From Candidatus Sumerlaeota bacterium (lineage in GTDB: Bacteria; Sumerlaeota; Sumerlaeia; JAFGJS01), in NCBI GenBank assembly GCA_016928995.1, contig JAFGJS010000007.1:1-7022 (forward strand): DNA of 7,022 bases. Reading direction: 5' to 3'. This document shows positions 2,646 to 6,993 of this stretch, piece after piece. Each line of letters begins with the position of its first letter. The first letter of the stretch is position 1. The notes below the pieces were generated by a model. The model saw only the letters and a program-made list of their open reading frames with translations. It had not been told where the DNA came from and did not search any database. A program made the position numbers and the translations under genes.

Positions 2646-4157
<1,512 letters not shown>

Positions 4158-4166
4158 GATTGCCTC

Positions 4167-4197
4167 ACGCGAAGACGCGAAGGCGCAAAGGCCTTCG
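4167..4197 (-). repeat. 'acgcaaagacgc' family repeat and hairpin in the xylB leader
   Basis: Bases 4167-4186 match 6880-6899 at 18 of 20 positions, so this is a copy of the same dispersed repeat. Its end forms a hairpin of 7-bp arms (CGAAGGC 4178-4184 with GCCTTCG 4191-4197) around a 6-nt loop. It begins 10 nt upstream of the xylB start codon, next to the ribosome site, so if transcribed it would be in the 5' leader and might affect translation. It also creates the spurious N-terminal extension of the xylB frame. A T-run on the plus strand (4206-4214) follows at a distance too great for a standard intrinsic terminator. Confidence 0.6.
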
Positions 4198-4290
4198 GCG
4201 CTGGAATTTTTTTTGATTGCCATAAGCTAATGCGAGGTTGGCGCGACTTCAAGCAAAACTAGGCGCTGAGACATAGAAAGAACGGTGAAA

Positions 4291-4360
4291 CATGATATTT
4301 TTTCGCGAGTTTTATTTTATGATTGCTTTTAAAAAACAAGTATGAATTATAGACGATTTT
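4291..4360. promoter_or_regulatory. AT-rich segment upstream of dnaB (possible unwinding or promoter region)
   Basis: Of these 70 bases only 16 are G or C (77% A+T by hand count), in sharp contrast to the genes on both sides. The segment contains runs such as TTTTATTTTAT and CTTTTAAAAAAC. It holds a possible plus-strand promoter: TTGCTT (4324-4329), 18 nt, TATAGA (4348-4353). A start near 4360 would leave the downstream DnaA-box-like array in the dnaB leader. Next to that array, the segment could instead act as a DNA unwinding element. Confidence 0.4.
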
Positions 4361-4390
4361 GTTATGGCCGGATGTTTACAGCGCGGTGAG

Positions 4391-4445
4391 ATATCCACAT
4401 TTTGGTCACAATTTGACCACATTTTGATCACAATTTTTCCACATA
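4391..4445 (+). promoter_or_regulatory. Array of five DnaA-box-like 9-mers at exact 11-bp spacing
   Basis: The 9-mers are ATATCCACA (4391), TTGGTCACA (4402), TTGACCACA (4413), TTGATCACA (4424) and TTTTCCACA (4435). All are on the plus strand, each followed by 2 nt, giving an exact 11-bp period. Against the DnaA box consensus TTATNCACA, the first and last have one mismatch and the middle three have two. The array ends 3 bp before the dnaB ATG at 4449. In E. coli oriC, arrays of weak DnaA sites separated by 2 bp guide DnaA oligomer growth, so the geometry fits cooperative DnaA binding. It could be an origin-like element or a DnaA-controlled operator of dnaB. Another regulator binding once per helical turn is the alternative. 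The repeat is seen directly; the DnaA link is inferred. Confidence 0.6.
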
Positions 4446-4448
4446 AGA

Positions 4449-5879
4449 ATGAGTTCGATCATGGCCACGCATCAGCAGATGGAGACGGAATTGCGCGAAC
4501 CGCCGCGGAATGAAAGCGCGGAGCGGACCGTGCTGGGCGCAGCGATGATCGACAATTCCACCATTGACATCGCGCTCGATTACCTGACGCCGGTATCGTT
4601 CTACAGCGCGGCGCATCAGGAGATCTTCCGCTGCGTCCTGGAATTGCACAAGGAGCATCGGCCGGTCGATTACATCTCCGTGGCCGAGGCGCTGGAGCGG
4701 CAGCAGAAGCTGGAGCTCGTGGGCGGGCGCGCGTACCTGGCCGACCTCGAAGATGAAGTATTGACCACGCAGAACATCGAGCATTACTGCGCGCTGGTCA
4801 AGACGGCCTGGCAAAAACGCGAGCTGATCAGCGCGTCGATGGAGATCATCGACGACTGCCACAACGCGGAGATGGAGGGCGAGTCGCTCTTCGACCGCAC
4901 GGAAAAGCGCATCTCCGACATCACGCAGCATAAAAGCAGCAAAGAATTCCAGTTGATGGCGCATGTGGCGGAGGAGGCGCTGGAGGAGCTCAAGCGGCGC
5001 AGCTCCGATCCGAACGACATCACGGGTTTGCGCACGCATTATAAATATCTGGATGAGATGACCGCCGGTTTGCAGAAGGGCGAGTTAATCATTCTCGCCG
5101 GACGCACGTCGATGGGCAAGACGGCGCTCGCGCTGAACATGGTCTGCAACGTGGCGGTGAAGGACAATCGTCCAGTCGCCTTTTTCAGCCTGGAGATGAA
5201 CGCGCAGTCGCTGCATAACCGGCTGCTTTCGCAAATGGCACAGGTGCCCATGGGTCACATCCGCAGCGGCATCCGCAGCAAGCAGGAGCTGAGTCGCGCG
5301 GAGGAGGCGAATGAACGGCTGGCGCAGGCGCCGATCTACATCGACGATTCATCCGCGCTGACCACGATGCAGCTGCGCGCCCGCGCGCGGCGCCTCAAGG
5401 CGCAGATTCCCGAGCTCTCGCTCGTGGCCGTGGACTATTTGCAGCTGATGCGCCACACGAACCTGGGCCGCAACGAGTCGCGGCAGGTGGAGGTGGCGGA
5501 AATTTCGCGTTCACTCAAGATTCTGGCGGGCGAGTTGAACATCCCCGTGCTGGCCATGGCGCAGGTGAATCGCAGCCCGGATCAGCGCGGACGCGGCGCG
5601 GCCGGGCGGCCCATGCTCTCCGATCTGCGCGAGTCGGGCGCCATTGAACAGGACGCCGACGTGGTGCTGTTCGTGCACCGGCCGGATAAAGGCAAACCCG
5701 CGCAAAATCTGGACTCCGAGGCGATGCGCGGACTCGACGGCGAACAGCAGCCGGAAGAGGCCGAGATCGTCGTCGGCAAGCAGCGCAACGGCGCCACGGG
5801 CGTGATCAAGGTGCTTTTTCTCGGTCAGCAAACGCGTTTCGTCACGCTGGCCAAGGAGCACTGGGGCGCGTACGAGTGA
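4449..5879 (+). CDS. dnaB: Replicative DNA helicase DnaB
   Basis: This 476-residue hexameric ATP-driven helicase unwinds DNA at the replication fork, with primase as the usual partner. The N-terminal helical domain begins PPRNESAERTVLGAAMID (18-35). A linker leads to the RecA-like motor at about 190. Walker A is GRTSMGKT (218-225). It is followed by FFSLEM (245-250), Walker B with Asp329 in VAVDYLQLM, the IPVLAMAQVNR segment (365-375), SDLRESGAIEQDADVV (391-406), and the arginine-finger motif KQRNGATG (444-451). There is no intein. Between RPDKG and the arginine finger the chain carries a hydrophilic, acidic stretch (about 416-437) longer than in E. coli-type proteins. The start is uncertain: the ATG at 4449 follows the 11-bp array almost directly and has no good ribosome site, while an in-frame ATG at 4461 has only a weak GAG upstream. 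xylB is divergent on the left. Confidence 0.96.
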   Translation: MSSIMATHQQMETELREPPRNESAERTVLGAAMIDNSTIDIALDYLTPVSFYSAAHQEIFRCVLELHKEHRPVDYISVAEALERQQKLELVGGRAYLADLEDEVLTTQNIEHYCALVKTAWQKRELISASMEIIDDCHNAEMEGESLFDRTEKRISDITQHKSSKEFQLMAHVAEEALEELKRRSSDPNDITGLRTHYKYLDEMTAGLQKGELIILAGRTSMGKTALALNMVCNVAVKDNRPVAFFSLEMNAQSLHNRLLSQMAQVPMGHIRSGIRSKQELSRAEEANERLAQAPIYIDDSSALTTMQLRARARRLKAQIPELSLVAVDYLQLMRHTNLGRNESRQVEVAEISRSLKILAGELNIPVLAMAQVNRSPDQRGRGAAGRPMLSDLRESGAIEQDADVVLFVHRPDKGKPAQNLDSEAMRGLDGEQQPEEAEIVVGKQRNGATGVIKVLFLGQQTRFVTLAKEHWGAYE

Positions 5880-6861: not shown

Positions 6862-6876
6862 CGCTCTATCTTTAAT

Positions 6877-6936
6877 TTAACGCAAAGACGCAAAGGCGCT
6901 AAGATTTCCATCGCGTTCTTAGCGTCTTTGCGTTAA
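6877..6936. repeat. Long hairpin made of 'acgcaaagacgc' repeat units
   Basis: The right arm 6917-6936 is the exact reverse complement of the left arm (6877-6904) once an 8-nt insert, AAAGGCGC at 6892-6899, is removed. This gives 15 plus 5 base pairs around a 12-nt loop. The insert is one extra repeat unit in the left arm only. The hairpin begins 15 nt after the PHP gene stop. No T-run follows on either strand, so termination would have to be factor-dependent. It belongs to the same repeat family as 4167-4186. Confidence 0.7.
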
Positions 6937-6993
6937 AGGGCGCATCTTGACGGAGCTCCCAAAGTTATGCGAAAGTACATCTGGAGACGAGAA

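Follow-up and report, generated by a model that had tools for sequence, protein, structure and literature searches.

An 11-bp-phased array of DnaA-box-like sites directly before dnaB in a Sumerlaeota genome points to probable control of the helicase gene by DnaA

Since five DnaA-box-like sites stand directly in front of the replicative helicase gene in this Sumerlaeota DNA, the question arises whether they control the supply of helicase or belong to a replication origin, both of which had been proposed in an initial annotation. The window, i.e. the whole stretch of 7,022 bp that was analysed, is the entire contig C21 of the draft MAG G000 (4.55 Mb in 161 contigs). This genome is alone in its order among those compared, and its nearest relatives there share only the class Sumerlaeia. 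Among other genes the window carries xylB on the minus strand, dnaB on the plus strand and, downstream of dnaB, a gene for a PHP-domain protein. The features of the region are the following:

2646-4157, minus strand: xylB, xylulokinase, divergent neighbour of dnaB (TIGR01312, 530 bits); likely start at the ATG at 4157, with a longer ORF beginning at 4223
4257-4390, no strand: AT-rich part of the xylB-dnaB intergenic region (100-bp GC about 0.31, lowest 60-bp GC 0.20 at about 4291)
4391-4443, plus strand: array of five DnaA-box-like 9-mers in exact 11-bp steps (starts 4391, 4402, 4413, 4424 and 4435)
4391-4399, plus strand: box 1, upstream end, ATATCCACA, 1 mismatch
4402 (start), plus strand: box 2, TTGGTCACA, 2 mismatches
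4413 (start), plus strand: box 3, TTGACCACA, 2 mismatches
4424 (start), plus strand: box 4, TTGATCACA, 2 mismatches
4435-4443, plus strand: box 5, downstream end, TTTTCCACA, 1 mismatch, highest of the five by the class matrix
4449-5879, plus strand: dnaB, replicative DNA helicase, 476 aa (TIGR00665, 479 bits, above cut-off; PF03796 and PF00772)
4449 and 4461, plus strand: ATG start codon of dnaB and alternative ATG

All five 9-mers end in CACA, lie on the same strand and are separated by spacers of exactly 2 bp (TT, AT, TT and AT), with the starts that had been annotated. They match the DnaA box and follow one another in one orientation within the distance of 2-3 bp that E. coli DnaA favours for pairs of boxes (PMC11317965). 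Counted against the consensus TTATNCACA, each end box has one mismatch and each of the three weaker sites between them (4402-4432) has two, in agreement with the one or two mismatches per site described before. The array had been given as 4391-4445: its start stands, while its end includes two bases too many as the last box stops at 4443. The array ends 5 bp before the first ATG of the dnaB ORF and 17 bp before the second, so that it indeed abuts the start of the gene, which is presumed to be under its control. The upstream end box ATATCCACA is likely a stronger anchor site. The intergenic region is 291 bp long and its AT-rich part probably contains the dnaB promoter; no sigma-70 consensus was found at 4257-4390.

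The array is the top-scoring DnaA-box chain of the window and is far beyond chance. The 291-bp intergenic region was shuffled 20,000 times with dinucleotides preserved: CACA was repeated in 11-bp steps at most three times, in a single shuffle, compared to five observed, and the chain score of 49.9 compares to a maximum of 26.5 in 3000 shuffles of the region. Single weak boxes are ordinary, with 38 matches at up to two mismatches in the window against 35 expected. The initial annotation had proposed a scan of the whole genome for the same array: a succession of four YCACA in 11-bp steps is confined to two places in the 4.55 Mb, the array before dnaB and one on contig C141, and the reversed control pattern has no match across the genome. 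None of the other 38 class genomes, all outside the order of the source, contains the four-YCACA pattern. The second locus is:

C141:20516-20553 (L067:1501-1542): second exact 11-bp array, TCATCCACA, CCTTCCACA, TTTGTCACA and TTATCCACA

It lies directly before a gene for a DUF4126 membrane protein, includes one perfect box (TTATCCACA) and could be the origin of the source genome or another DnaA target. No GC-skew switch was found on this contig, where skew is positive along the whole length, and no array was found at the DUF4126 orthologues of ten relatives.

Tandem Repeats Finder describes the array before dnaB as 2.3 copies of a 22-bp unit with 89% match, and it can be written as CCACATTTTGRTCACAATTTGA twice followed by one end box. 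The five boxes therefore probably arose by duplication of a two-box unit. Since this unit is tandemly repeated, the exact 11-bp phasing partly reflects the duplication, and the five boxes correspond to about two or three independent sites. The period and the degree of match would also suit a young repeat made by slippage and devoid of function. We consider this hardly credible, as the divergent C141 array holds the 11-bp spacing without duplication and boxes are enriched at dnaB across the class.

This enrichment was determined in dnaB upstream regions, oriented by gene, of 34 genomes of the class and about 50 others; genomes listed by name as relatives were mostly Actinobacteria, a different phylum, and were used as outgroup only. 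Chains of DnaA boxes 10-14 bp apart on one strand were scored, and five class genomes supplied 3539 control windows of 530 bp. Of the 34 class genomes, 14 reached a score of at least 20 upstream of dnaB, and these cover five of 14 families. Only 9 of 3539 controls scored as high, three of them being dnaB itself, which leaves about 6 of 3536. Fisher's P is about 1e-25 with genomes counted as if unrelated. No dnaB upstream region among the roughly 50 genomes outside the class reached 20, the best scoring 18.7. The class box matrix is circular, having been built from arrays chosen by a DnaA matrix, and a model-free count of 7-mers in 33 class dnaB upstream regions, with the source genome left out, provides the unbiased test: TCCACAG ranks first and is present in 15 of 33 genomes compared to 1.4 expected (P = 9e-13). 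TTTTCCA with its overlaps comes next, and TTATCCA is also enriched.

In the relatives the boxes repeat with a period of 10-13 bp, 11 bp being commonest, and the arrays are mostly located about 75-300 bp upstream of dnaB; in G004, G024, G029 and G037 all boxes lie upstream of the gene. The exact 11-bp phase, whose conservation before dnaB had been named as a check, is not conserved in these relatives, all of which belong to other orders. The gene divergent from dnaB varies: xylB in the source genome, a pterin-binding enzyme in G007 and G021, URO-D in G036 and a pseudouridine synthase in G027. As families differ in this neighbour, it is dnaB that the boxes accompany. Between 17 and 20 of the 34 class genomes have no array upstream of dnaB, including G009, whose DnaB is the closest relative of the source protein (49%). 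The array is also lacking in G003, G012 and G023, where dnaB directly follows rplI, as far as visual inspection of the end of the ORF before it tells. Box direction is antisense to dnaB in nearly all relatives and sense in the source genome, with G011 as a weak case of sense-oriented boxes; homology of the site with those of the relatives is therefore unproven. As far as the compared sequences tell, the array is unusually regular, its exact phase and sense orientation being peculiar to the source lineage.

Arrays also precede the gene for class II ribonucleotide reductase (nrdJ) in G013, G024, G027, G029 and G034, so that the position before genes of replication or nucleotide supply recurs at dnaB and, in several genomes, at nrdJ. 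The second box of the window array, TTGGTCACA, is found identically in the nrdJ array of G027. In the source genome two further runs were detected:

C44:8731-8761 (L317:1501-1531): three boxes in 11-bp steps, TTTTCCACA, TTATCCATC and TTCTTCACA, before nrdJ
C25:25489-25529 (L062:3184-3224): weak four-box run in steps of 11, 11 and 10 bp, TTACTCACG twice, TTCTCCACT and TTTCACACA

The C44 array is located in a very AT-rich gap, about 0.4 kb ahead of a gene whose product has the domains PF08471 and PF02867. The C25 run precedes dnaA by about 0.3 kb and is possibly a site of dnaA autoregulation; strong arrays upstream of dnaA were not found in the relatives. We also observed a GGTGTGCAACC/GGTGTGCAAGC tandem repeat with exact 11-bp period in G013 (G013:C25, L273:2525-2566). 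The reversed control pattern has many matches in this genome, and 11-bp repeats of the TGTG type there are therefore not all DnaA arrays.

The three middle boxes before dnaB hold 6-bp cores (TGATCA, TGGTCA or TGACCA) which create an inverted repeat, TGGTCA-N5-TGACCA, at 4403-4419. Another transcription factor could accordingly bind TGRYCA palindromes, the likeness to DnaA boxes being incidental. This is quite unlikely in our view: the palindrome is missing from both end boxes and from the arrays on C141 and C44, the dnaB arrays of the relatives are composed of plain DnaA boxes, and an inverted repeat arises automatically when such a core is repeated. Closely spaced DnaA boxes are on the other hand known from datA and DARS, which are clusters located away from oriC (PMC11317965), and the array might thus serve DnaA titration or nucleotide exchange and merely happen to lie beside dnaB. 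The recurrent link with the starts of dnaB and nrdJ favours gene control, while titration needs no particular gene, which makes a site of this kind very improbable, although titration may be a side effect of the array.

The DnaA of the source genome can be aligned over its full length with that of entry 8btg and retains PRHIAMYL...GGRDHTSVIYA, including the canonical box-reading helix (motif GGRDHTSVIYA). A second DnaA-like AAA+ domain was noticed at C41:4863-6008 (L063) and in relatives (L142-L155) within very long open frames. Such frames, many of about 1300-2100 aa, occur in most class genomes searched and would encode a large DnaA-related protein.

We then considered whether the array is part of the origin of the source genome, in which case filling with DnaA would open the AT-rich stretch at 4257-4390. 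Five sites spaced by 2 bp beside a stretch of 20-31% GC resemble half of the E. coli oriC, where weak sites 2 bp apart are filled by DnaA passed on from strong sites (PMC6070618). Furthermore, dnaB and dnaA are 32-70 kb apart in G013 and G004, and no other origin is established in the draft genome. Compared to the E. coli clusters, however, the array before dnaB lacks a perfect high-affinity box, and no DnaA-trio-like run was found beside it. An AT-rich stretch adjoins it in the source genome; such a flank is not evident at the arrays of several relatives. The contig of the window is too short for skew analysis, and in G004, G013 and G024 no minus-to-plus switch of GC skew was found at dnaB.

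The complete genome G004 (Ca. Sumerlaea chitinivorans, one contig of 3,289,105 bp) has dnaB at 1.13 Mb and dnaA at 1.06 Mb. Its cumulative GC-skew minimum and main switch lie near 2.7-2.9 Mb, as estimated from about a third of the genome with a weak and irregular signal. Close to this position, beside genes for a Nif3-family and a zinc-ribbon protein, there is a cluster of DnaA boxes in a gap that is syntenic with one in G019:

G004:C1:2663508-2663540 (L281): DnaA-box cluster in the syntenic gap
G019:C11:338704-338736 (L275): DnaA-box cluster in the syntenic gap

Similar clusters, in which TTATCCACA occurs up to three times, are found beside the Nif3 gene in G013, G024, G029 and G031. The G004 cluster at 2.6635 Mb, near the skew minimum and 1.5 Mb from dnaB, is the better oriC candidate, as evidence and not as proof, and provides a testable one for Ca. 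Sumerlaea. An origin beside dnaB had been suspected from the boxes upstream of dnaB in several relatives and was dropped on account of the skew profiles and the separate Nif3-linked clusters. That the array belongs to an origin, as the initial annotation had suggested, is thus unlikely.

The other proposal, DnaA control of helicase supply, gains support from the arrays at dnaB across the class, from the nrdJ arrays and from precedents in other phyla. We therefore favour with good confidence that the array serves the dnaB promoter as an operator bound by DnaA, through which helicase supply would be coupled to DnaA; DnaA would thereby probably control the amount of helicase made. In Caulobacter, DnaA has been linked to dnaB and is reported at its promoter (PMC8203912). 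In Caulobacter crescentus, which belongs to another phylum, DnaA boxes are likewise predicted upstream of the helicase gene and dnaB responds to DnaA supply (Hottes et al. 2005, via PMC8203912 and PMC7738170); the five-box 11-bp-phased array differs from what these sources relate. In M. tuberculosis, DnaA binding upstream of dnaB (the Rv0057 site) was shown experimentally by IDAP-seq, and dnaB is under-expressed in a DnaA mutant that binds there less well (PMC7738170). The Sumerlaeota counterparts are predicted from sequence alone. The double boxes of E. coli (nrdA, DARS, mioC and oriC) share the spacing of 2-3 bp and ribonucleotide reductase as a target; they are pairs as opposed to five boxes, and the consulted part of that report does not name E. 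coli dnaB as a bound region (PMC11317965). No report joining Sumerlaeota with DnaA was found in the literature searched. DnaA at the dnaB promoter is hence known in principle and, judged by these predictions, would be new for the phylum Sumerlaeota. Control of the replicative helicase gene by DnaA, as known from an alphaproteobacterium and a mycobacterium, would then reach into an uncultured phylum far removed from both, and the arrays at a dNTP-making gene suggest that DnaA, the starter of replication, recurrently coordinates the supply of its helicase and of precursors.

As to the mechanism, we infer that DnaA, best in its ATP form, would anchor at the two better end boxes and spread cooperatively from there across the three weak boxes with their 2-bp spacers, so that dnaB expression would track the amount of active DnaA. 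With 5 bp between the array and the dnaB ORF, filling would most likely block transcription, i.e. dnaB would be repressed at high DnaA-ATP. For the arrays of the relatives, about 75-300 bp upstream, activation would be equally possible. Lower dnaB expression along with weaker DnaA binding in M. tuberculosis (PMC7738170) points to activation, and the sign of regulation is therefore not settled, the two directions being about evenly balanced. Tentatively, there may be a DnaA regulon of phased multi-box arrays in Sumerlaeia, comprising dnaB, class II ribonucleotide reductase and weakly dnaA, in which cooperative DnaA filling sets the helicase supply. The dnaB array of the source lineage would then have been rebuilt the opposite way round by tandem duplication of two boxes right before the ORF, possibly yielding a graded sensor of DnaA-ATP.

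Apart from the array, the window contains copies of an interspersed motif, GCGAAGACGCGAAGGCGC / ACGCAAAGACGCAAAGGCGC, at 177-199, 4168-4192 and 6876-6940. The last copy is an inverted repeat, and the motif looks like a dispersed repeat family of the source genome.
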